DNA from: Muscardinus avellanarius
Taxonomy: Eukaryota > Chordata > Mammalia > Rodentia > Gliridae
Length of the DNA: 64,000 nucleotides
Assembly: GCA_963383645.1 (NCBI GenBank)
Contig: OY726565.1
Span: 42,264,944-42,328,943, forward strand
Direction of reading: 5' to 3'
This document shows positions 4,237 to 50,344 of this stretch, piece after piece (positions within the stretch are counted from its first letter, which is position 1; every line of letters begins with the position of its first letter). The position numbers were made by a program, and so were the translations under genes. The notes under the pieces are model-generated. The model did not search any database, was not told where the DNA came from, and was given only the letters and a program-made list of their open reading frames with translations.

Positions 4237-4554
4237 CTTGTCTGCTTTTTCTTGTCATGGTCCCTTCATGCTCTTCAGCTCTGGCCATCCTGTGTAAAGG
4301 TTTTTTGCTCATGTTGGCTCTCTTGGGAAGCCTCCTTGTCTCATCTTGTTGTTATATTTTACTCATTCTTTAAGGCTGTAAGTATAAGCTTTTCTCACCA
4401 TACATCTCTCTGTACTCTGCTGCTCTTGGTGTTTCTCTAAGCATCTATAAGAATTGTAGATACAAGGATACAACTTTCATTTCTTTGTTATGGTCAAAGC
4501 ACCATGTCCCTGCAAGTGATGAACATATTCTTTCTTTATGCCCTTTGTTGCACA

Positions 4555-4715
4555 TGTTTTGAAAGCCTACATTGTGGGACATCTTTGCTAACAGCTAAAT
4601 ATAATGGGAGATTATCTCCATTTAATAGATTTAAAAACAATGAGATTTTAAGATATTAAGTTGCTTGTTCAAAGACCCACAGCCTCAGAGCAGGATTTAA
4701 GTCTGGGTCTGTCTT
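4555..4715 (-). mobile_element. MIR SINE, antisense
   Basis: Reads as the MIR reverse complement: 'atctccatttaatagattta' for the 'cccattttacagatgagga' box, then 'aagttgcttgttcaaagacc' and 'caggatttaagtctgggtct'. Confidence 0.6.
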
Positions 4716-4719
4716 TTTC

Positions 4720-5415
4720 TGACTTTCTAGAGACTCTCTTTGTTGAATGTGGACGAGTCAAGGTGGGCAGGTAACAGGGTGGGAAGGCCTTTGGAGATCT
4801 GGGAGATGAGTGTAACAGAGAAGTTAGAATGGGTTGCCAGACTTAGTGGGTGGTTGGATGAGGGTGGGGTGGGCAAGGTGTTCAGAACTAAAGACGCAAA
4901 AGGAGGAGAGGGCAAATGGAATCCTCATGATGACCTGAGGGGAACGGGGCTTTGGAGGTGGCAAAGGCCAGACCTCTCTGACTTCTTTTCCTGTAGGGAG
5001 TCTTGACTAAACTTGGACTGAGTGCTGGCCAGAGGCCTGGTGTCAGAATGGGAGTCCCCAAAGGGTCAAGTGGGAAGATATACAGGATGACTGTGAACTC
5101 TGCCCTTAGAGGGAAGGAGGCCACACTTGTTACTAAACCTGAGCACTGGGAGCCAGGCAAGAACCAGAAGGTGAAGCTGAGTGTCAGGAGCTAGACAGAC
5201 ACCAGGACAGAGTGCAGAGTCAAGAGTGAGTGTGAGAACAGGTACACTTGGTAAACAGCATGGCAGCAGGAGCCGGGTTGAAATGGTTTCAAGGGGCAAG
5301 GGTGAACCTGTGTGGCTTATAGGCATGAAGCTTGGAAAGAGAACAAACACACAAACAGAAAAACAAAGGGCCTTAGATCATCAAGTTAAGGGGATGTTTT
5401 CTTTTTTATTCTTTT
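4720..5415. other. No gene seen
   Basis: GA-rich single-copy-looking DNA with overlapping short open frames on both strands. None shows a domain or conserved motif I recognise. Confidence 0.4.
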
Positions 5416-20284: not shown

Positions 20285-21016
20285 CAGTAAATGGGAATAA
20301 GTGTGGAGAAACAGAAGCTCTAATACATTGTTGGTGGGATTGTAAGTTGGTGAAACCACTTTGGAGGACAGTATAGAAGATCCTTAGAAGAAGGAAAACG
20401 AAATTACCATATGATCCAGCAATACCACTTCTGGGTATCTACCAAAAAGAATGAAAACCAAAATACCAAACTAATGCATGAACAACCATGTTCATAGCTG
20501 CACAGTTCACCATTGCCAAACTGCAGAACCAGCCAAGATGTTCTTTAACAGATGAGTGGATTTCAAAACCATGGGATAGGTACACAATGGAATTTTTCCC
20601 AGCCATAATGGAGAAAAATATTATGGCATTCAGTGAAATGTCACAAAAAATAAGAAATCAGATGCTTTTCTTAATGTGCAAATTATTAGGGAGAAATGGG
20701 TAACAGGAGGAACTCTAGATGAAGAAGGGACCCTATAGAGGAACAATGAAGATGACATATCTGAGGGGATAAGAGGGAGGATAAGGGAAACTGTTTAAAG
20801 CACATGATGTACTTAAACATATCAAAGTCAATCAGGAAGCCAAACATGGGTAGGGGGAGGGGGAAGGAAGGGGTTAGATATTGGGTAGGGGATGATTGGG
20901 TGATGTGTGCATGTATAGCTCCACAAGTTTTTTTTTTTAAATCCCATTGAGATGTATGACTACAATTTGCCAATAAAAATTTATTAAAAAATAAAAAAAT
21001 TAAAAAAATTAAAAAT
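20285..21016 (+). pseudogene. L1 ORF2 C-terminus and 3' UTR within the composite
   Basis: 'cattgttggtgggattgtaa', 'ccatatgatccagcaatacc' and 'tgggatag...tacacaatggaattt' give the ORF2 C-terminal region. Translation of 20488-20703 aligns with the ORF2 tail (FIAAQFTIAK, then RCSLTDEWISK). After the frame ends there is the L1 3' UTR with a G-rich tract (about 20846-20890) and 'gccaataaaaattta'. Only the last few hundred bases of ORF2 are present. Confidence 0.85.
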
Positions 21017-22600: not shown

Positions 22601-22785
22601 TTTTATTTTATTTTTTTGGGTAATTTATATATATATATATTTCTAAATAATAAAGATTTTTTTAAAATAATTTCAACAGGTTTCTGGGGCTAGATGCAAA
22701 CCTGCAATTCTCCTGTTTCAGCCACCCAAATACTGGGATTACAGGGGTTCACCACAACATCTGACTATTCTGTTAGTCTTTTTTT
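22601..22785 (-). mobile_element. Probable 3'-transduced flank of copy A
   Basis: Between the element's own A-rich end (poly(T) at 22779-22787) and the second A-rich tail next to the TSD (about 22600-22617) lie ~160 bp that other copies lack. They include a partial antisense B1 half ('cccaaatactgggattacag') and a (TA)n. This is the pattern of read-through transcription followed by polyadenylation downstream. Confidence 0.6.
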
Positions 22786-23119
22786 TAAATTTTTAATTGG
22801 TGCACTGTATTCATACATCATAGTGGGATACATACTTTTGTAGACATACATGCACACATTGCCCAATCAGCCCCCACCCGATCCCCACCCCATTCTCTCC
22901 CTATCCCTCCCTCCCATGCTTGGCTTACTGATTGACATCTAGTATTATAGCAATTTATCAAAAATTAAAAATGGTAATCTCACATAACAGTTTCATTTGT
23001 CTGATACCAAGCTTTTGATGACTTAAAGATAACATTTCAATATTTCTTTTTGCTTTCTTTCTTACCAGAGAATCTATTTTTTCTATTTTTTTAGGTGAAA
23101 CTATCATATATTTATATAT

Positions 23120-23650
23120 TTATTTTTCAGAAAAAAAATCTATCCTAATATGGAATATGGACTCTAGGTACCCACAACGATCTTGAAAAGGAACAAAGCT
23201 AGAAGATGTATATTTTCTGATTTCAAACCATATAAAGCTACAATAATTGAAACAGTGTAGTACTATTCTAAAGGCAGATATATAAACCATTGGAGTTAAA
23301 TAAAAGCCTAGAGCTAAATTCTTCCTTATATTATCAAGTTATTTTGACAAGGATTCCACGAACATTTGGTGGTGGGAATAATAATCTTTTAACTAAATAT
23401 TGTTGAAAAATAATAATTACATGGAAAAGAATAAAATTGGACCCTTACCTAATCCTATATACAAATATTAACTCAAAATAGATAAAAGACCTAAATATAA
23501 ATCTTAAGACTATAAACTTTTAGGAGAAAATCTGGGTCATAAAACCTCACAACATTGAAATTGGCAGTGATTTCTTGGTTATGATTTCAATGGCACAGGC
23601 GACAGAAGAGTATACAAACTCCCTAAAAAATAAAAAAACATATTGTATAT
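23120..23650 (+). pseudogene. Inverted fragment of an old L1 ORF2 inside copy A
   Basis: On the plus strand it reads in ORF2 sense orientation, opposite to the host element. 'aggaacaaagctagaagatg' followed by 'gatttcaaaccatataaagc' matches the conserved NKA...PDFK.YYKA block, and 'aaatctgggtcataaaacct' plus 'atgatttcaatggcacaggc' match the downstream ORF2 segment. Stops occur throughout. It is more diverged from the window's young L1 than the ORF1 part is, so it came from an older L1. Confidence 0.8.
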
Positions 23651-23840
23651 CCAAAGACAATGTAAACAGAGTTAACAGTTACTAATAGAATGGGATAAAA
23701 TATTTCCAAATGCTATATCTGAAGGTATATTAATATTCCAACTAGAAATCCTAAAAATTAACAACAATAAAGGCAAACAATACCCTTTAGAGATAGGTAA
23801 AAGACTAACATAAATAATGAATCTCCACAGATAACCAATC

Positions 23841-24753
23841 TTAGTTGTCTGTTGGATGGAAAATCTTGTTTCTCTAGTTCTGGTGTGTGTTACCTATTTC
23901 TTCTTTGTAGTTAATCTCTTTGAGTATTTTCTCTAGTGCTGGTTTTGAAGACATAAATTCCTTCAGTTTCTGTTTGTCATGGAAGCTTCTTATTTCTCCA
24001 TCTAATTTGATAGAAAGTTTTGCTGGGTAGGAAATTTTTGGCTGAAGTTGTTTTCTTTCAGAGTTTGGAATATGTTACTCCAAGCCCTTCTGGCTCTCAT
24101 GACTTGGTTTGGGAAGTCTGGAGTGATTCTAATTGGTTTGCCTCTGAATGTCACTTGGCCCTTTGCTTTTGTTGCCTTTAAGATTCTCTGCTTGGCTTCC
24201 ACATTGGTCATTTTGACAATTATGTGGCGTGGGGATCCTCTTCTCCGATCCTGTCTAAAGGGAGTTCTATAAGTTTCCTGGACCTGCGTATCGACCTCTT
24301 GCTCTATGTCAGGAAAATTTTCTGCTATTACTTCCTTGAAGAGATTGTTGATCTCTTTGGTATCACTTTCTTTTCCTTCCTCTATTCCAATTATTCTTAG
24401 GTTAGCTCTCTTAAAATGGGCCCATATTTCTTCAATATCAGATTCCTGCTGTCGGGTATTTTTTTCTAGATTAGAAACTATGCGTTCATTTTTGGATCAT
24501 CTTCTAAGAGCGAGATTCTGTTCTCCATGTGGTCTAATCAGTTGTTTGTGCTTTGAATTGAGGCCTTTACTTCATTAATTGCATCCTTTATCTCTTTTTG
24601 GCTCTCTCTGAGTTCTTTTCAAAGCACCTCTATTATTTCTACAGTTATTTTCCTAATTTGATCTTCTAGAAATCTCTGAATTTCTGTTTTATCGGGTTCT
24701 GATGTTGTGGGGTTGTGAGCATTCATTGCTCCAGTATTATTCCTCTTTCCCAT
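23841..24753 (-). pseudogene. L1-type ORF1 of copy A, frame-broken
   Basis: Start at the MGKRN motif (ATG 24753); the stop TAA at 23841-23843 follows an altered C-terminus shared with copies B and D. The 913-nt span is not a multiple of three. The RRM to C-terminal segment is readable (MTNVEAKQRILKATK ... ITPDFPNQVM) before a frameshift near 24040. Family role: trimeric RNA-binding ORF1p that coats L1 RNA. Confidence 0.85.
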
Positions 24754-25559
24754 GATTTCGGAAGTTTGTGCCTTCTCTGGGTTCTTCCCTTGGGTCACTA
24801 TGACTTCACTTAAGGTGCTCTGGATCTCGAGTCAGTAGTATCTCAGACCCCACTACTCCTTTACTGGGTTGTATCACAGAGTCTCCAACCCAGAGAGTCG
24901 ATAGAGGCTGCTTTAGACTGTGGGGGGTGCCAGGTTGCACGTTCTCCTATGGTGTGATATCACTGCCACCGCCCCTCTCCCACTGTGTCAAGTCCCAGTG
25001 AGTACAGTACTGGGATTTCTCCGCTGTGCCCCACAATTTGACTCACTGTTCTTGAGTACGCAGATGTAGCTCTACTGAATTTGGTGAATTCGGTGCTGTT
25101 GCTGCCGGTGGCAATATGGCGCTGCTGCTACGCCCTCGGCTATAGGGCTGGTGTTTTTTTTTTCTTGGTTTTGATTTCCACTCTGAATCCCTGCATCGTG
25201 TGCTGAGATCAGCCACTGGAAACTTTAGATGCCCTCTGCGCCGAGAAATCCCGCCTGGCTGTTCCGCAGCGGCTCCCCTCGGCTTGCTGTGGCCGTCCAG
25301 TGAATTCGCCGGTGCCTCCGGCAGTATGGTGCTGCTGCCGCGTCCTCGGGCGTGAAGCCGCGTCCTCGGGCGTGAGGATCTCCTCTGTGGCTCTGTTCTC
25401 AGTCCGCTTTCTCTCTGGAGCCTGGTGATTTTTTTTGTTTCTCTGGTGATGTTGTTTTCTGGCTTTGAAAGGCGCTGATTTTGTGGTAATGGAGATTTGT
25501 TGTTAGCGGGGCTCTTAAGCCCCGCTTTTCTCGGTCGCCATCTTCCCGGAAGTCCAATC
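24754..25559 (-). promoter_or_regulatory. L1 5' UTR of copy A
   Basis: GC-rich leader whose 5' end carries 'ccgggaagatggcgaccg', a YY1-like start-site motif shared with the L1 at 50.3 kb and copy B at 41.15 kb. It contains a perfect ~20 bp local duplication (25338-25357 and 25358-25376, 'gccgcgtcctcgggcgtga'). Presumed internal RNA polymerase II promoter. Confidence 0.75.
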
Positions 25560-37302: not shown

Positions 37303-38325
37303 CTGGGCATAGCAGTGCACACCTGTCATCTTAGAATTTGGGAGGCTGAGACAAGATGAGTGCAGGGTTGAAGCCAGCATTAGTAACTTAGTAAGACCCT
37401 CAGTGACTCAGCAAGAATCTGTTTTAAAATAAATAATTAAAATTGAAAATGTTCATCATTATTAGCCATCAGGTAGATGCAAATCAAAACTACGCTGAGA
37501 TTCTATCTAACCCCAATCAGAGTATAAAGTATAAAGAAATCAAATAACAACAAATGTTGGTGAGGATGTGGGGAAAGAGGAATTCTTTTACACTGTTGGG
37601 AGTGCAAACTAGTTCAGCTGCTATGGAGCTCAGTGTGGAGATTCCTTAGAAAACTGGGAATAGATCCACCATATGATCCAGCTCTACCACTCCTGGATAT
37701 TTGTCCAAAGGGATTGAAATCAGAGAACTACAGTAACATATGCATATCCATGTTCATAGCAGCATAGTTCATAATAGCCAAAATATGGAACCAACTAGGT
37801 CTCCATCAACAGATGAATGGATTGCAAAATTATGGGAAATGCACACAATGGAATTCTATTCAGCTATAAAGAAGAACAAAATCATGTCATTTGCAAGAAG
37901 ATGGAAAGATCTGGAGAACATTATGTTGAGATCAGCCAAGTACAGAAAGAGAAGGGACATATGTTTTCTCTAATATGCCCAAAATAGGGAGCATTGGGGA
38001 TACTGGAGGGACTCCAGATAATGAAGGGGAAATCTCAGCAAAGCTAGAATGGAAGGATAGGAGAGGAAGAAGGCTGAGGTTGATTAATGGAGGAGCTATA
38101 TTTGAATATGTGTAAAAGTATGAATATAGCATGGTTAACCTGGACACTCATTGTTGGGAGGGGGAAGGGAAGAAGGGGATTAGAGGGGGCCAAGCACAGT
38201 CTAAATGTATACTATTTTCAATATGTTCCACATATAAATAAAATTTAAAAATAAATAAAAAATTGAAAGAGATGTGATATAGCTTGGAGGTGGAATACTT
38301 CTGGGTTTACTCTCTAGTACAAAAA
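37303..38325 (+). mobile_element. B1-dID-type SINE split by an L1 3' end
   Basis: B1 half 37303-37440 ('ggctgggcatagcagtgcac' to 'gttttaaaataaataa'); ID half 38265-38325 ('gatgtgatatagcttggagg' to 'actctctagtacaaaaaa'). Confidence 0.82.
37446..38262 (+). mobile_element. L1 3' end (ORF2 C-terminus + 3' UTR) inserted in a SINE
   Basis: 'gttggtgaggatgtggggaa', 'ccatatgatccagctctacc', 'cacacaatggaattctattc' are the ORF2 C-terminal end; translation of 37740-37973 gives PSTDEWIAKLWEMHTMEFYS, the L1 tail signature. The 3' UTR ends near 'aataaaatttaaa'. 'aaaattgaaa' flanks the insert on both sides (about 37439 and 38264), in the A-rich linker of the host SINE. Confidence 0.85.
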
Positions 38326-41146: not shown

Positions 41147-41942
41147 GGGACATCCGGGAAGATGGCAACCGAGAAAAGCGGGGCATAAGAGCCCTGCTAA
41201 CAACCAATCTCCATTACCACAAAATCAGCGCCTTTCATAGCCAGAAAACACCATCACCAGAGAAACAAAAAAATCACCAGGCTCCAGAGAGAAAGCAGAC
41301 TGAGAACAGAGCTCAGAGCCACAGAGGAGATACACCGGCCTCACGCTTGAGACTGCGGCAGCAGCGCCATACTGCCGGCGGCAGCGGCGAATTCACCGGA
41401 CGGCTACAGCAAGCTGAGGTGAGCCGCTGCGGAACAGCCAGGCGGGATCTTTCGGCGCAGGGAGCATCTAAAGCTCCCAGTGGCTGAGCTCAGCACACGC
41501 TGCAGGGATTCAGAGTGGAAATCAAAACCAGAGAAGAAAAAATACGCCAGTCTCACGGCCAATGGCGTGGCAGCGGCACCATATTGTCACCGGCGGCAGC
41601 AGCAGAGAATTCACCGAGTCCAGTACAGCTACATCTGCGTACAAAAACAGTGAGTCAAATTGCGGGCCACAGAGGAGAAATCCCAGTACTGTACTCCCTG
41701 GGACTTGACCCAGTGGGGGAGTGGTGGTGGCAGAGATATCACACCATAGGAGAACGTGCAACCTGGCACCCCCCATAGTCCAAAGCAGCCTCTATCGACT
41801 CCCTGGGTCGGAGACTATGTGATACAACCCAGTAAAGGAGTAGTGGGGTCAGAGATACTACAGACTCGAGATCCAGAGCACGTTAAGCGAAGTCATAGTG
41901 ACCCAAGGGAAGAACCCAGAGAAGGCACAAACTTCCAAAATC
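41147..41942 (+). promoter_or_regulatory. L1 5' UTR of copy B
   Basis: Starts with the YY1-like 'gggaagatggcaaccgag' box, GC-rich for the first ~450 bp. Similar in order to the 5' UTRs at 24754-25559 and 49454-50324. Confidence 0.75.
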
Positions 41943-42861
41943 ATGGGAAAGAGGAATAATACTGGAGCAATGAATGCCCACAACCCCACAACATCAGAAC
42001 CCGATAAAACAGAAAATCAGAGATTTCTAGAAGATCAAATCAGGAAAATAACTGTAGAAATAATAGAGGTGCTTCGAAAAGAACTCAGAGAGAGCCAAAA
42101 AGAGATAAAGGATGCAATTAATGAAGTAAAGGTCTCAATTCAAAGCACGAACAACCGATTAGACCACACGGAGAACAGAATCTCGCTCTTAGAAGATGAT
42201 CATTCCAAAAATGAATGCATAGTTTCTAATCTAGAAAAAAATATCCAACAGCAGGAATTTGATATTGAAGAAATATGGGCCCATTTTAAGAGAGCTAACC
42301 TAAGAATAATTGGAATAGAGGAGGGAAAAGAAAGTGAAACCAAAGGGATCAACAATCTCTTCAAGGAAGTAATAGCAGAAAATTTTCCAAACATAGAGCA
42401 AGAGGTTGATACACAGGTCCAGGAAACTTATAGAACTCCCTTTAGACAGGATCGGAGAAGAGGATCCCCACGCCACATAATTGTCAAAATGACCAATGTG
42501 GAAGCCAAGCAGAGAATCTTAAAGGCAACAAAAACAAAGGACCAAGTGACATTCAGATGCAAACCAATTAGAATCACTCCAGACTTCCCAAACCAAGTCA
42601 TGAAAGCCAAGAGGGGCTTGGAGTAACATATTCCAAACTCTGAAAGAAAACAACTTCCAGCCAAAAATTTCCTACCCAGCAAAACTTTCTATCAAATTAG
42701 ATGGAGAAATAAGAAGCTTCCATGACAAACAGAAACTGAAGGAATTTATGTCTTCAAAGCCAGCGCTAGAGAAAATACTCAAAGAGATTAACTACAAAGA
42801 AGAAATAGGTAACACACACCAGAACCAGAGAAACAAGAGTTTCCATCCAGCAGACAACTAA
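41943..42861 (+). pseudogene. L1-type ORF1 of copy B, one frameshift
   Basis: ATG at 41943 opens MGKRN. The frame holds the coiled-coil region (about residues 26-112), the RRM (from RANLRIIGIEEG to RHIIVKM) and the start of the C-terminal domain (ITPDFPNQVM), then shifts near 42615 (ends ...KAKRGLE) and resumes in another frame to TAA at 42859-42861. Length 919 nt is consistent with a single net +1. The frame is also open upstream to 41898. Protein role by family: RNA-binding chaperone of the L1 particle. Confidence 0.88.
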
Positions 42862-43034
42862 GATTGGTTATCTGTGGAGATTCATTATTTATGTTAGTCT
42901 TTTACCTATCTCTAAATTGTATTGTTTGCCTTTATTGTTGTTAATTTTTAGGATTTCTAGTTGGAATATTAATATACCTTCAGATATAGCATTTGGAAAT
43001 ATTTTATCCCATTCTATTAGTAACTTTTAACTCT

Positions 43035-43610
43035 GTTTACATTGTCTTTGGATATACAATATTTTTTTATTCTTTAGGGAGTTTTTATACTCTTCTGTTG
43101 CCTGTGCCATTGAAATCATATCCAAGAAATCACTGCCAATTTCAATGTTGTGAGGTTTTATGACCCAGATTTTCTTCTAAAAGTTTATAGTATTAAGATT
43201 TATATTTAGGTCTTTTATCTATTTTGAGTTAATATTTGTATATGGGATTAGGTAAGGGTCCAACTTCATTCTTTTCCATGTAATTATTATGTTTCAACAA
43301 TATTTAGTTAAAAGATTATTATTTCCACCACCAAATGTTCGTGGAAACCTTGTCAAAAATAACTTGACAATATAGGGAAGAATTTAGCTCTAGGCTTTTA
43401 TTTAACTCCAATGGTTTATATATCTGCCTTTAGAAAAGTACTACACTGTTTCAATTATTGTAGCTTTATATGGTTTGAAATCAGAAAATATATATCTTCT
43501 AGCTTTGTTCTTTTTCAAGATCCTTTTGGGTATCTAGAGTCCATTTTCCATATTAGGATAGATTTTTTTTCTGAAAAATAAATATATAAATATAGGATAG
43601 TTTCACCTAA
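43035..43610 (-). pseudogene. Inverted fragment of an old L1 ORF2 inside copy B
   Basis: Antisense to the element. 'gcctgtgccattgaaatcat', 'cccagattttcttctaaaag', 'gggtccaacttcattctttt' and 'gctttatatggtttgaaatc' are reverse complements of consecutive ORF2 segments. Boundaries estimated by comparison with copies A and D. Confidence 0.8.
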
Positions 43611-43786
43611 AAAAAATAGAAAAAAAATATTCTCTGGCAAGAAAGAAAGTAAAAAGAAATATTGAAATGTTATGTTTAAGTCATCAAAAGCTTGGTATCA
43701 GACAAATGAAACAGTTATGTGAGATTATCATTTTTAATTTTGGATAAATTGCTATAATACTAGATGTCAACCACTAAGCCAAGCAT

Positions 43787-43840
43787 GGGAGGGAGGGATG
43801 GGGAGAGAATGGGGTGGGGTTTGGGTGGGGGCTGACTGGG
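43787..43840 (+). promoter_or_regulatory. G-rich 3' UTR tract (G-quadruplex candidate)
   Basis: Runs of three or more G repeated at least six times ('gggagggagggatgggga' onward). The tract is conserved at 44870-44925 (plus), 22862-22920 and 54300-54358 (C-rich on plus), and 20846-20890. G-rich 3' UTRs are a known trait of mammalian L1s. Confidence 0.75.
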
Positions 43841-43977
43841 CGATGTGTGCATGTATGTCTACAAAAGTTTTCTTTGTATCCCACTATGATGTATGAATAC
43901 AGTGCACCAATAAAAAAAAAAAAAGAAGTGTTTCGCAAAACTGTAGGAATAAGTAAATACAATATTATTTTTATTTC

Positions 43978-44152
43978 TTTTTTTTGTGGTTCTGGGGTTC
44001 CTGGGGGCCCTTCTGCCTACGGGCTACACTCCCAGACCTTTTTTTATTTATTTGGAGACAGGGTCTCTTAAGCCAGCGATACGAACCTGCGTGATCCTCC
44101 TGTCTCCGCATCCCAAGTGCGGGGGTTGCAGGAGTGCGCCACCACGCCTGGC
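43978..44152 (-). mobile_element. B1-dID-type SINE (derived subfamily), antisense, with TSD
   Basis: 'ggttctggggttcctggggg' to 'gccaccacgcctggc'. Perfect 15 bp duplication 'tattatttttatttc' at 43963-43977 and 44153-44167. Confidence 0.93.
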
Positions 44153-44184
44153 TATTATTTTTATTTCAAATGCTATAGACAGAA

Positions 44185-44361
44185 GCCGGGCGTGGTGGCG
44201 CACGCTTGTGATGTCCGCGCTTGGGAGGCGGAGACGGGAGGATCACGCAGGCTGGCTTGGGAGACCCTGTTTCCAAATAAAAATGTAAAAGTGGGTCTGG
44301 GAGTGTAGCCTGGAGGTAGAGGGGCTTCCAGGAACCCCAGTACCACAAAAAAAAATTAATA

Positions 44362-44398
<37 letters not shown>

Positions 44399-44423
44399 TA
44401 AATAAATAAAGTTCACTTTTAAA
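44185..44423 (+). mobile_element. B1-dID-type SINE (derived subfamily) with TSD
   Basis: 'gccgggcgtggtggcgcacg' to 'ggaaccccagtaccacaaaa', then (AAT)n/(AAAT)n. Perfect 17 bp duplication 'aaatgctatagacagaa' at 44168-44184 and 44424-44440. Many intact CpGs. Confidence 0.95.
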
Positions 44424-44440
44424 AAATGCTATAGACAGAA

Positions 44441-45012
44441 AAAAAATAACTTGACAACATAGGGAAGAATTTAGCTCTAGGCTTTTATTTAACTCCAATA
44501 GTTTATATATCTGCCTTTAGAATAGTACTACACTGTTTTAATTATTGTAGCTTTATATGGTTTGAAATCAGAAAATATATATCTTCTAGCTTTGTTCTTT
44601 TTCAAGATCGTTTTGGGTATCTAGAGTTCATATTTCATATTAGGATAGATTTTTTTCCTGAAAAATAAATATATAAATATATGATAGTTTCACCTAAAAA
44701 AAATAGAAAAAAATATTCTCTGGTAAGAAAGAAGCAAAAAGAAATATTGAAATGTTATCTTTATGTTATCAAAAGCTTGGTATCAGACAAATGAAACTGT
44801 TATGTGAGATTATCATTTTTAATTTTGGATAAATTGCTATAATACTAGATGTCAACCACTAAGCCAAGCATGGGAGGGAGGGATGGGGAGGGAATGGGGT
44901 GGGGATCGGGTGGGGGCTGACTGGGTGATGTGTGCATGTATGTCTACAAAAGTTTTCTTTGTATCCCACTATGATGTATGAATACACTGCACCAATAAAA
45001 AATTTAAAAAAA
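44441..45012 (+). mobile_element. HAL1-like copy C, 5'-truncated
   Basis: Starts inside the inverted ORF2 fragment ('aaaaaaataacttgacaaca', cf. 43353 in copy B) and runs to 'gcaccaataaaaaatttaaa'. It retains the G-rich 3' UTR. Its A-rich end abuts the poly(T) of the minus-strand L1, giving a tail-to-tail junction at about 45010. Confidence 0.85.
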
Positions 45013-45115
45013 TTTTTCCTCTTCCCCCCTCCTTTCTCCTCCTTTAGATTGTCTTGTTTGCTCCTCTATATGATTTCCTTTTTCATCTAGAGTTCCTCCT
45101 ATGACCCATTTCTCC

Positions 45116-48100
45116 CTAACTCTCACATATTAGGGAAAGCATCTGCTGTCTTATTTTCTGTGACTGACTAATCTCACTTAGCATAATGTCCTCCAGTTCC
45201 ATCCATTTCCCTGAAAATGATGTAATTGAGTTTCTTTTGATGGCTGAGTAAAATTCCATTGTGTACATATCCCACAGTTTTGTGATCCATTCATCTGTTG
45301 ATGGACATCTTGGCTGGTTCCATCATTTGGCTATGGTGAATTGTGCAGCTATGAACATAGATACACATGCATTAGTCTGGTAGTTTGGTTTCCTATCTTT
45401 TGGGTAGATACCCAGAAGTGGCATTGCTGGATCAATGGTAGATTTGTTCCCATTCTTCTGAGGATTCTCCATACTGTTTTCCAAAGTGATTGCACTAATT
45501 TGCAATCCCACTAACAATGTCTTAGAGTTCCCACTTCTCCACATCCTCGCCAGCATCTGTTGTTGTTTGTGTTTGAATGATTGCCATTCTAGTTGGAGTT
45601 AGGTGAAATCTCAGGGTAGTTTTGATTTGCATCTCTCTGATTGCCAATGATGTTGAGCATTTTTTCATGCATTTATTGGCCATTTGAATTTCTTCTTTTC
45701 TGAAGTTTCACTTGCCCATTTTGTTATTGGATGCTTTGTTTTCTTAGTGTTGAGTTTCTTGAGTTCTCTGTATATTCTAGATATTAGTCCTCTATCGGAG
45801 GTGTAGGTGGCAAAAATCTTCTTCCATTCTGTTGGCTCTTGGTTGAGGTTCTTGACAGTTTCCTTTTAGTTTGTTGTTCCTTTGGAATCTTGTTGAGAAA
45901 GTGTTTATCTGTGCCTATGTGTTGCAGTGTTGGACCTATGCCATCTTTAAGAAGCTTCAAGGTCTCTGGTTTGATTTCCAAGTCTTTGATCCATCCTGAG
46001 TTGACTTTTGTACAGGGTGAGAAAGTGGGATTAATTTCCAATTTTCTGCATATGGTTAACCAGTTTTGCCAACACCATTTGTTGAACAGGCTATCTTTTC
46101 TCCAGTGTATGTTTTTGGCCCCTTTGTCAAAAATCAATTGGCTGAAAGTGTGTAGATTTGTTTCTGGGTCTTCTATTCTGCTCCATTGGTCTATGTATCT
46201 GTTTTTGTGCCAGTACCATGCTGTTTTTATTACAATGGCTTTGTAGTATAGTTTAAAGTCAGGTATTGTGATTCCTCCTGCATGTTTTTTGTTGTTGAGA
46301 ACTACCTTGGCTATTCTGGGCTTTTTGTTATTCCAGATAAATTTAAGGACTGATATTTCTATGTCTGTGAGCAATGATCTTGGTAATTTAATGGGCATTG
46401 CATATAATCTGTAGATCACTTTTGGGCCATTTAATGATATTTATTCTGCCAATCCATGAACATGGAAGATCCTTCCATCTTCTAAGATCTTTGATTTCTT
46501 TTTTCATTGTTTTATAATTTTCTTTGTAGAGATCTTTTACCTCCTTGGTCAAGTTTATTCCTAAGTATTTTTTTTTTATTTTTGTGGGAAATCCTGAGTG
46601 GAAGTGTTTTCTGAATTTCTTTTTCAGTGGATTTATGGTTGGTGTACAGGAAAGCTTCTAATTTTTTAAGATTCATTTTGTATCCAGATACTTTGCTGAA
46701 TTTGTGATCAGTTCTATAAGGCTTTTGGTTGAGTTTGTTGGGTTTTCTAAATATAGTATCATGTCATCTGCAAATAGAGAAAGTTTGAGTTCTTTTCCTA
46801 TTTGTACTCCTTTGATTTCCTTTTTTTGCCTTATTGCTCTGGCTAGAGTTTCTAGTACTATATTGAAGAGAAGTGGTGATAGTGGACATCCTTGTCTCGT
46901 TCCAGTTTTTAGGGGGAATTCTTGAAGTTTTTCCCCATTTAAAATGATGTTGGCAGTGGGCTTATTGTAGATTGCCTTAATAATGTTGAGATATGTTCCT
47001 TCTATTCCAATTCTCTGCAGTGTCTTTATCATAAATGGATGATGAATTTTATCAAATGCTTTTTCGCATCTATTGAAATGAGCATTTGATTTTTGTCTTT
47101 GATTCTGTTTATATGATGAATTACATGGATTGATTTTAATATATTGAACCAGCCTTGCATCCCTGGGATCAACCCTACCTGGTCATGGTGTATGATTTTC
47201 TTTATTTAGTTTTGAATGCGTGTTGCTAGTGTTTTGTTTAATAGTTTGCATCCAAGTTCATCAGAGATATAGGCCTGTAGTTTTCCTTCCTTGAACTCTC
47301 TTTATTCAGTTTGGGTATTAGTGTGATATTGGCTTCATAGAATGTATTTGGGAGAGTCCAGGTTTTTTCCATTTCATGATATAGTTTGAGTAGTATTGGG
47401 GTTAGCTCTTCTATAAAGGTTTTATAGAATTCACTTGGGAAACCATCTGGTCCTGGGCTTTTTTTTGATGGTAAGCTCTTTATTGTTGTTTGAATCTCTT
47501 TGATTGTTATTGGTTGGTTTAAGTGTTTTATATCTTCTTGACTCAGTTTAGGAAGGTTGTATTTATCTAGGAAGTTGTCGATTTCCTCCAGATTTTCCAT
47601 TTTGTTGGAGTAGTAGTTTCTGATAATCCTCTGGATTCCTACACTGTCAGTAGTAATGTCTCCTTTTTCATCCCTTATCTTCATAATTTGGGTTGGTTCT
47701 CTCTCTTTTTTAATTAGTTTGGCTTGTTTTAATTTTTTTAAATTAGTTTGGCTTGTTTAAAAGAAACCAGCTTTTGGTTTTGTTGATTTTCTGCACTTTT
47801 AAAAATTTATTTGTTAATTTCTGCTCTAATTTTAATAATTTCCTGTCTTCTTCTGGCTTTGGGGTTCAATTGTTCCTGCTTTTCAAGGGTTTGAGGTGTG
47901 TCATTAAGTTATTTATTTGAAGATTTTCTGTAGTTGGGTGAAATATTCTATATGTGTCCAACAGGTCCATTTGGTTAATGGTGTTCTTTAGTTCTGAGGC
48001 ATCTTTACTGACCCTTTGTCTGGAAGATCGGTCTAGTGTTGTGAGAGGTGTGTTGAAGTCTCCCAGTATTATTGTGTTGGAATTTATGTGTGACTTCATG

Positions 48101-48492
48101 TCACAAAGAGTTTGATTTATGAAAGTAGTTGCACCTATGTTTGGGGCATAGATATTGATTATTGTTATTTCCTCTTCCTGGATTATTTCTTTTACCAGTA
48201 ATATATGACCTTCTTTGTCTCTTCTAATAAGTTTGGGTTTGAAGTCTAACTTGTCTGATATCATAGTTGCTACTCCTGCTTGTCTTCAAGTTCCATTAGC
48301 ATGGATTACCTTGTTCCAGCCCTTTACCTTGAGTTTGTTCCTATCTTTAGTTGTAAGGTGTGTTTCTTGTAAGCAGCAAATGGATGGATTCTGGTTTTTA
48401 ATTCATTTTGCCACTTTATGTCTTTTTATTGGGGAGTTGAGGCTGTTTACATTCAGTGTGATTATAGATAGATAATTTTTAATGCCTAACAT
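45116..48492 (-). pseudogene. L1 ORF2 (endonuclease/reverse transcriptase), frame-broken
   Basis: ATG at 48492 (MLGIKNY...), stop TAG at 45116-45118. Pieces in several frames: endonuclease with the GDFN motif (48264-47866), the region before RT (47684-47238, with [11 protein letters not shown]), RT core with [12 protein letters not shown] and the catalytic FADD (47032-46673), the post-RT region with [16 protein letters not shown] and PDFKLYYKA (46419-45784), and the C-terminus (45556-45323). At least three frameshifts or stops separate them. At ~3.4 kb it is shorter than a typical 3.8 kb ORF2, so there are also deletions. Not functional. Confidence 0.9.
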
Positions 48493-48541
48493 GTTAAGAT
48501 TTTATTTCTGTTTGAGATACTGTTTATTCTTCTTTGCTGAT

Positions 48542-49453
48542 TTATCTGCTGGATGGGAAATCTTGTCTTTGGTTCTGGCGTGTATTACCCATTTCTTCTT
48601 TGTAGTTTCTCTCCTTGAGTATTTTCTCTAGCGCTGGTTTTGAAGACATAAATTCCTTCAGTTTCTGTTTGTCATGTAAGCTTCTTATTTCCCCATCTAA
48701 TTTGATAGATAGTTTTGCTGTGTAGGAAATTCTTGGCTGGAAGTTGTTTTCTTTCAGAGTTTGGAATATGTTACTCCTTGTCCTTCTGGCTTTCATGACT
48801 TGGTTTGGGAAGTCTGGAGTGATTCTAATTGGTTTGCCTCTGAATGTCACTTGTCTGTTTGTTTTTGTTGTCTTTAAGATTCTCTGCTTGGCTTCCACAT
48901 TAGTCATTTTGACAATTATGTGGCGTGGGGATCCTCTTCTCTGATCCTGTCTAAAGGGAGTTCTATAAGTTTCCTGGACATGTGTATGGACCTCTTGCTC
49001 TATGTTTGAAAAATTTTCTGCTATTACTTCCTTGAAGAGATTATTGATCCCTTTGGTTTCACCTTCATTTCCCTTCTCTATTCCAGTTATTCTTATGTTA
49101 GCTCTCTTAAAATGGGCCCATATTTCTTCAATGTCAGATTCCTGCTGCTGGATTTTTTTTTCTAAATTAGAAACTATGTGTTCATTTTTGGAGTGCTCAT
49201 CTTCTAAGAGCGAGATTCTATTCTCCATGTGGTCTAATCGGTTGTTTATACTTTGAATTGAGGCCTTTACTTCATTGATTGCATACTTTATCTCTTTTTG
49301 ACTCTCTCTGAATTCTTTTTGAAAGTCCTCTATTATTTCTACAGTTATTTTCCTTATTTGATCTTCTAGAGATCTCTGAATTTCTGTTTTATCAGGTTCT
49401 GATGTTGTGGGGTTGTGGGTATTCATTGCTCCATTGTCATTCCTCTTTCCCAT
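48542..49453 (-). CDS. L1 ORF1 protein (ORF1p), open reading frame
   Basis: An uninterrupted 303-residue frame from the canonical MGKRN start; the frame is also open eight codons upstream (to 49477), but MGKRN is the conserved start in the other copies. Domains: coiled coil about 26-112 (heptads between LEDQIRK and QQQESDIEEI), RRM about 115-212 with RANIRITGI and RHIIVKM, C-terminal domain about 213-285 (ITPDFPNQVM to EKILKERNYKEE). Length is usual for the family (about 300-370). Role: trimeric single-strand nucleic-acid chaperone in the cytoplasmic L1 ribonucleoprotein. It lies just upstream of a dead ORF2, so the element cannot move itself, but the protein could be made and act in trans if transcribed. 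Confidence 0.9.
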   Translation of the reverse strand: MGKRNDNGAMNTHNPTTSEPDKTEIQRSLEDQIRKITVEIIEDFQKEFRESQKEIKYAINEVKASIQSINNRLDHMENRISLLEDEHSKNEHIVSNLEKKIQQQESDIEEIWAHFKRANIRITGIEKGNEGETKGINNLFKEVIAENFSNIEQEVHTHVQETYRTPFRQDQRRGSPRHIIVKMTNVEAKQRILKTTKTNRQVTFRGKPIRITPDFPNQVMKARRTRSNIFQTLKENNFQPRISYTAKLSIKLDGEIRSLHDKQKLKEFMSSKPALEKILKERNYKEEMGNTRQNQRQDFPSSR

Positions 49454-50324
49454 GATTTCAGGTGCTCTGGATCTCAAGTCTATGGTATGTCAGTCACCAC
49501 TAACTACTCCTTTATTGGATTGTATCACAAATTCTCAGACCCAGGGAGTCAATCGAGGCTGCTTTAGAACATGGGGGTGCCAGGCTGGGCATTTTCCCAT
49601 GGGGAGTTGTGACTATGGTGTAATATCTCTGCCACCACCACTTCCCCACTGGGTTGGACTGCAAAAATCTCCGACCCCAGGGAGAGTATCTGTGCAAGTC
49701 CCTGGGAGTGCAGTACTGGGATTTCTCCTCTAGGGGCCACAATTTGACTCATGTTTGTTGAGTGCGCTGATGGAGCTGTAGTGGACTCGATGAATTCGCT
49801 GCTGCCGCTGCTGTCAATATAGTACCGCTGCCACATCCTCGGCCGTGACGCTGGAGTATTTCTTTTCTAGTTTTGAGCTCTGCTCTGAGTCCCTGCAGGG
49901 TGTGCTCAGCTTGCTGTCCGCCCCTCCTCTCTGGAGCCTGGTGGGTTAAGTGCGTTGGCCTGGAGCTGTCCAGTGTACTTGCCATTGCCGCCAGTAGTAA
50001 GGCGCTACTGTCATGTCATCGGCCGTGAGGCCAGCGTATCTCCTCTTTGGTTCTGAGCTCCGCTCTGAGTCCCCCTCCTCTCTGGAGCCTGGTGCTGCAA
50101 GGGAACATGACTTCCACACGCCTCCGGCCGCAGTACTGTGGGCTGGTTTCTTTCTGGTGTCTCGTTTTTTCCAGCCCTCTTTTTCTCTGTCCCTTGTATT
50201 TACAGTTTTTATTTCTTTACTGATGGTGTTTTCTGGCTATGAAAGGTGCCGATTTTTTGGTAATAGAGATCAATTGCTAGCGGGACTTGTAAGCCCAGCT
50301 TTTCTCCGTTGCCATCTTCCCGAA
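49454..50324 (-). promoter_or_regulatory. L1 5' UTR, presumed internal promoter
   Basis: GC-rich leader with the YY1-like 'gggaagatggcaacgg' at its 5' tip. Shares order and local identity with the 5' UTRs of copies A and B. Confidence 0.75.
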
Positions 50325-50344
50325 ACCAAACACTTATTATTATT

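Follow-up and report, generated by a model that had tools for sequence, protein, structure and literature searches.

A dormouse HAL1-like retrotransposon family carrying an inverted segment of old L1 ORF2

Results

Four copies of one element in the window

The window analysed here is a 64,000-nucleotide stretch of Muscardinus avellanarius DNA. Four copies of one element lie in it, at the positions that an initial annotation had given, with ends slightly adjusted by BLAST and multiple alignment. When blasted against the 64-kb window, the copies (A-D) show a mutual identity of 93-96%. An ordinary L1 in the same window serves as a yardstick.

22601..25559, minus strand: copy A, full length, with ~180 extra 3' bases (BLAST and multiple alignment)
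25573-25560 and 22600-22587: target-site duplication of copy A, TAAAATCCTCCCTG
41147..43924, plus strand: copy B, full-length chimeric HAL1 (BLAST and multiple alignment)
44441..45012, plus strand: copy C, 5'-truncated within the antisense piece (BLAST and multiple alignment)
54226..~55477, minus strand: copy D, 5'-truncated within ORF1, with junctions as in the other copies (BLAST and alignment)
45013..50325, minus strand: ordinary L1 (yardstick) with a 5' UTR, an open ORF1 of 303 aa and a sense ORF2 broken by frameshifts

The copies share one order of parts: the L1 5' UTR and ORF1 come first, followed by old L1 ORF2 sequence in antisense, a short spacer, the end of an L1 3' UTR and an A-rich tail. 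The distance from the ORF1 stop to the A-rich end is ~1,060 bases. In copy B, the parts are as follows.

41147..41942, plus strand: L1-type 5' UTR, within stretches that match the window L1
41943..42861, plus strand: ORF1, ending at the junction TAA, with the frame broken by a 1-base insertion
42862..42924: 63 bases 3' of the ORF1 stop, common to A, B and D, outside the ORF2 alignment
42925..43533, minus strand: antisense L1 ORF2 fragment, decayed by stops and frameshifts
43534..43765: ~230-base spacer linking the antisense ORF2 fragment to the 3' UTR
43766..43915, plus strand: G-rich end of an L1 3' UTR with AATAAA, matching an L1 copy (20301-20985) at 116/149 bases

From the 5' UTR through ORF1, the copies match the window L1 at 79-81%; for copy B the identity is 84% over 41155-41271 and 79% over 41275-42857, a stretch that runs through ORF1. 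The region 41943-42611 of copy B matches Pfam Transposase_22 (PF02994; E 1.9e-25), and the ORF1 products of A and B share 247/284 and 249/286 residues with the window L1. For the spacer, the rest of the window beyond the four copies yielded only short A/T-rich hits (E 0.004), none of them convincing.

The terminal ~180 bases of copy A (22777-22601) are absent from B-D and lie inside the target-site duplication of A. They contain a second A-rich tail as well as a SINE-like stretch, and stem either from 3' transduction or from a SINE that inserted into the tail. At 44441-45122, copy C and the minus-strand L1 abut tail to tail. Here, the 3' UTR of the window L1 breaks off after ~105 bases at the A-rich end of copy C, and since the distal part of this 3' UTR is missing where the two meet, a target deletion accompanying the insertion of copy C is suggested. 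Between copies B and C (43950-44440) are two SINE-like insertions on opposite strands, with apparent target-site duplications, assigned by eye, of ttatttttatttc and aaatgctatagacaga. A 5-base indel at 43868-43872 splits B and C from A and D, hinting at two subfamilies. The remaining 2:2 splits conflict with one another (three AB, two AC and one AD besides the indel).

An antisense piece of an older ORF2

Downstream of the ORF1 stop of copy B, similarity to ORF2 is found in antisense only. In a translated comparison with the window L1, ORF2 was likewise recovered solely on the antisense strand of the copies. In a frameshift-tolerant alignment of 43533-43093 (antisense), 62/145 residues are identical to the window L1 ORF2. 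This alignment scores 161; six shuffled proteins reach no more than 42, and the sense strand reaches 31. The same segment corresponds to residues ~859-1004 of human ORF2p (E 9e-29). The next C-terminal part of ORF2 follows at 43014-42925, also in antisense (13/30 residues, score 49; shuffles 24-34, sense strand 23).

The initial annotation had described a separate linker of ~170 bp at this place. The second alignment assigns part of this linker to the antisense ORF2 and rules out a linker wholly separate from the ORF2 piece, while the 63 bases next to the stop stay outside the alignment and are possibly more antisense ORF2. A 45-residue linker piece, searched with phmmer against the PDB, gave 0 matches up to E 10.

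In a DNA alignment of 422 columns, the antisense piece and the window L1 agree at 61%. Over C-terminal ORF2, two further L1 copies of the window, both decayed, reach 83% (310/375) and 75% (398/529) identity to this L1, and the 3' UTR of the chimera is 78% identical to that of another L1 copy. Judged by these identities and by the ORF1 residues that A and B share with the window L1, the parts of the chimera differ in age. As the piece stands at 61% beside a younger ORF1 and a 3' UTR at 78%, it was already old and decayed at the time of its capture. The initial annotation of the fragment as part of an older L1 ORF2 is confirmed.

The longest exact word shared between the antisense piece and the window L1 has 13 bases, which rules out extended base pairing between its RNA and that of present-day L1s. 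The ORF2 of the window L1 contains 11 AATAAA signals; the antisense piece of copy B contains 0 and its spacer 1. Since the piece shows neither special conservation nor long complementarity to the window L1, we take the antisense module as a passenger. A more active role, in which a U-rich, AATAAA-poor module keeps the RNA short and well transcribed and so gives it the advantage over L1 in the competition for ORF2p, in a family still moving in dormice today, seems to us improbable.

The junctions and the end of ORF1

L1-derived sequence stops at the ORF1 stop codon, which in copy B is the TAA at 42859-42861. The junction between ORF1 and the antisense piece is common to A, B and D, as the alignment and a word count both confirm: with up to 3 mismatches allowed, a 27-base junction word has 3 occurrences in the window, where 100 shuffles predict 0. 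The 3' junction is common to all four copies; in copy B, the 3' UTR part starts near 43766. The junction word occurred 0 times in viral contigs, and no ORF1 relatives were confirmed in viral contigs or in bacterial and archaeal genome contigs.

The copies had been annotated as having an altered ORF1 end. The closest L1 ORF1 relatives that we found, two ENA proteins with 74% and 69% identity to ORF1 of the window L1, suggest the reverse. These outside L1 proteins end in ...HQTAN and ...HQTNN and copy B in ...HPADN, and the ORF1 end of the window L1 aligns to the copies with one 2-base and one 4-base gap. Because the end of the copies resembles the outside proteins and the window L1 is gapped, the copies probably retain the ancestral-looking end, and the window L1 copy appears to carry the change. 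With these two proteins plus a third as outgroups, 17 amino-acid differences fall on the L1 copy branch and 5 on the HAL1 branch, with 6 unresolved.

A dispersed family with one structure

The assembly searched has 104 contigs with a total of 2,497,143,478 bases. Copy B as the query returned 10,771 first-look candidates, and 40 of these were scored. These 40 places, B among them, are 94-100% identical to the query, and one short 69-base match lies beside one of them. Of the 25 places that were read, B included, the other 24 are 94-97% identical to copy B over 2.2-2.8 kb, and 23/25 begin within its first 22 bases. An apparent common start at B position 1013 proved to be an artefact of first-look scoring, with 15/17 loci starting within the first 22 bases of B. 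These loci are the top-scoring hits of the copy B search, which biases the sample towards young and long copies. Twenty-three full-length loci align end to end with B, with identical junctions, and the full-length copies read lack a sense ORF2. Together with A and D, both junctions are present in 27/27 places, within a few substitutions.

A second search, with the antisense module and spacer, returned 1,820 first-look candidates (40 scored, 1,780 unscored). All 40 scored matches have at least 97% identity, with B at 100% and the 39 others at 97-98% over practically all 899 bases. Twenty further places, taken from the 31 not yet read and followed on the ORF1 side only, join ORF1 at the identical base in 20/20 cases. 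This supports a family with one ORF1 junction, which is the same, within a few substitutions, in all 47 places read (27 + 20). The places are spread over many chromosomes.

These data also bear on whether the antisense piece and spacer are simply the normal 3' UTR of an autonomous L1 subfamily, the copies being internal deletions of it. We regard this as unlikely, given that the 3' UTRs of L1 copies in the window (20690-20985 and 37990-38250), as well as the partial 3' UTR of the window L1 at 45013-50325, lack such a segment. Moreover, ORF1 and not ORF2 lies directly upstream of the module in 20/20 loci selected by the module itself.

The crowding of four copies into 64 kb had been read as a sign of the family's success. 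It seems unrepresentative, as the module search returned 1,820 first-look candidates in 2.5 Gb. The local density is far above the ~1 copy per 1.4 Mb that this count predicts; either older and shorter copies escaped the count, or the family is clustered in this region.

Marks of retrotransposition

Direct repeats that enclose the whole chimera (score of at least 12 at the 5' border) were found at 18/23 full-length insertions, compared to 3/506 mismatched flank pairs. In this test, locus L008 was dropped and the truncated L010, L019, C and D were left out; for copy A, the 3' flank was lengthened from 120 to 260 bases to allow for the extra tail. The repeats mostly come after A-rich tails. Five of the 23 insertions (B, L012, L014, L024 with a score of 9 and L025 with a score of 11) fall below the threshold, and L016 passes it solely with an A-rich, low-complexity repeat. 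The copy at L024 appears to be inserted in another element containing ORF1, and is flanked by ORF1 pieces at 1272-1571 and 4328-4858; these pieces overlap by ~16 bases, as a target-site duplication would.

When 400 bp on each side of 25 loci were compared, only L007 and L008 proved alike in register (99.75% and 100%), and among the other flanks the only similarity is that of scattered repeats at differing offsets. L007 and L008 lie ~209 kb apart, near 119.52 and 119.31 Mb (G000:C3), in a recent segmental duplication. As they share their flanks, we counted them as one insertion in a duplicated segment.

This pair shows that segmental or tandem duplication of a rearranged locus can add copies without retrotransposition, and the crowding of copies in the window might be read in the same way. 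As an account of the whole family, it is nonetheless exceedingly improbable: the remaining flanks are unrelated, 18 of the 23 full-length insertions have direct repeats of their own, and A-rich tails occur at places on many chromosomes. Among the 25 loci compared, duplication with shared flanks is confined to L007/L008.

Independent twin priming, that is, 5' inversion in several separate L1 insertions, starts from a common process, with ~10% of human L1 copies being 5'-inverted according to a passage in PMC2912911. Under twin priming, the inverted segment would be 5'-terminal. In the dormouse copies, it instead lies between ORF1 and the 3' UTR, with a sense 5' UTR and ORF1 upstream. The inverted piece is also far older than ORF1 and the 3' UTR, and one junction recurs in 47/47 places read. 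Given these identical junctions and the enclosing repeats, independent twin-priming events cannot account for the family, and we give this explanation next to no weight.

The same junction at 47 places, combined with direct repeats around the whole chimera, points instead to one chimera that was transcribed and retrotransposed repeatedly. This was the reading of the initial annotation, and it is supported by the fixed junction, the 18/23 enclosing repeats and the differing flanks.

Coding state and age of ORF1

ORF1 is open over 305 codons in 10/27 places examined, and by position its stop is the junction stop. This count includes both L007 and L008, copy D is truncated, and the start was not found in L024. 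The mean difference from the majority sequence, averaged without L008 and with copy C outside the alignment, is 1.3% for ORF1, 1.5% for the antisense piece, 1.2% for the spacer, 1.7% for the 3' UTR and 3.0% for the 5' UTR. Differences among the copies are mostly private (539 singletons vs 196 shared), as repeated copying from few sources gives. At rodent substitution rates, this divergence means an age of a few million years, which is a lower bound for the family because the loci are best matches to B.

With all changes weighted equally, amino-acid changes in ORF1 are fewer than expected (A vs B, p 0.033; HAL1 vs L1, p 0.003), with dN/dS of 0.40-0.48. With transitions weighted, this signal is gone (p 0.25 for A vs B and 0.14 for HAL1 vs L1). 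Across 25 copies, L008 and L024 excluded, substitution classes in ORF1 did not differ between singletons and shared changes (Fisher p 0.70). A weak excess of synonymous ORF1 singletons (p 0.049) was lost when CpG changes were removed (p 0.13), and stops are as frequent in ORF1 as expected (9/183 changes). Overall, these tests give no robust sign of selection on ORF1 in this young, star-like family. That ORF1 was kept while the family expanded agrees with a need for it in cis, but also with the youth of the family. In guinea pig, HAL1 coding capacity was retained for ~29-44 million years, as stated in a passage of PMC3627910.

Discussion

Taken together, we consider it highly probable that the copies represent a lineage-specific HAL1 family that descends from a single founding fusion, the fused RNA having been copied via ordinary L1 ORF2p. 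The observed basis consists of fixed junctions, duplications around the whole chimera, A-rich tails, dispersal, a partly open ORF1 and the lack of a sense ORF2.

The founder would have combined the 5' UTR and ORF1 of a young L1, up to the stop codon, with ~610 (perhaps 670) bases of ancient, decayed antisense ORF2, a ~230-base spacer and the terminal 150 bases of an L1 3' UTR. Its RNA would be transcribed from the promoter in the L1 5' UTR, and ORF1p would be made from the first frame. Judging from the insertion marks and from what is known of L1 and HAL1, new insertions would then arise by target-primed reverse transcription, with ordinary L1 ORF2p acting in trans.

The founder itself may have been born in one of two ways. 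In the first, reverse transcription would have switched templates, onto L1 RNA, at the ORF1 stop. In the second, a single L1 locus would have had its ORF2 replaced by ectopic filler DNA. The founder is not explained by simple twin priming, as its parts differ in age and the inversion is internal. Twin priming could be the source of the founder's 3' half; the age difference and the ~230-base spacer speak against it.

HAL1s allow the requirements of a mobile LINE-1 RNA to be tested in nature: a promoter, ORF1, a tail and borrowed ORF2p. The dormouse element indicates that ancient, unrelated sequence can enter a successful L1 parasite if ORF1 and the ends are kept. As a young family with many open ORF1s, it is also a place to ask whether movement in trans needs ORF1p in cis. 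For genome annotation it is a trap, since the antisense part is likely to be labelled as an inverted old L1 and the copies split into pieces.

The element has an L1 ORF1, an L1 5' UTR, an A-rich L1-type 3' end and target-site duplications, lacks a sense ORF2, and forms a multi-copy family with a single structure. By these structural features, it is a HAL1. According to passages of the papers cited, HAL1s derive from L1, possess ORF1 only and originated on several occasions in mammals (PMC5753468; PMC5322556), and named examples include human HAL1, HAL1B and HAL1M8, rat RNHAL1, guinea pig HAL1-1H_Cpo and HAL1-3D_Cpo, marmoset HAL1-1C_Cja and pig HAL1_Ssc (PMC5753468, PMC6069787, PMC3183009, PMC6501411). 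Human HAL1 is given there with nearly 2,100 copies, poly(A) and target-site duplications (PMC5322556).

Among the papers and passages that our literature search listed, with Repbase and Dfam outside its coverage, we found no description of a HAL1 with an inverted ORF2 segment or of a dormouse HAL1. The architecture is at least unusual, though this does not establish a first description.

Like the HAL1s described in those passages, the dormouse element is derived from L1, has ORF1 only and no ORF2p, carries a poly(A) tail and target-site duplications, and would need the enzymes of full-length LINEs. Unlike them, it holds ~610 bases of older ORF2 in inverted orientation between ORF1 and the 3' UTR, a difference that we draw from literature passages. 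With 5'-inverted (twin-primed) L1s (PMC2912911), it shares an antisense L1 segment beside a sense L1 3' end. In those L1s the inversion lies at the 5' end of a single insertion, whereas the dormouse element has a sense 5' UTR and ORF1 upstream of it and is copied as a whole.

Chimeric retrocopies of the U6-L1 type arise by template switching of the L1 reverse transcriptase, mostly as single events. They resemble the dormouse element in fusing unrelated RNA parts with L1 hallmarks, and they illustrate a possible route for its birth. In contrast to these mostly one-off chimeras, the dormouse fusion became the source of many copies.
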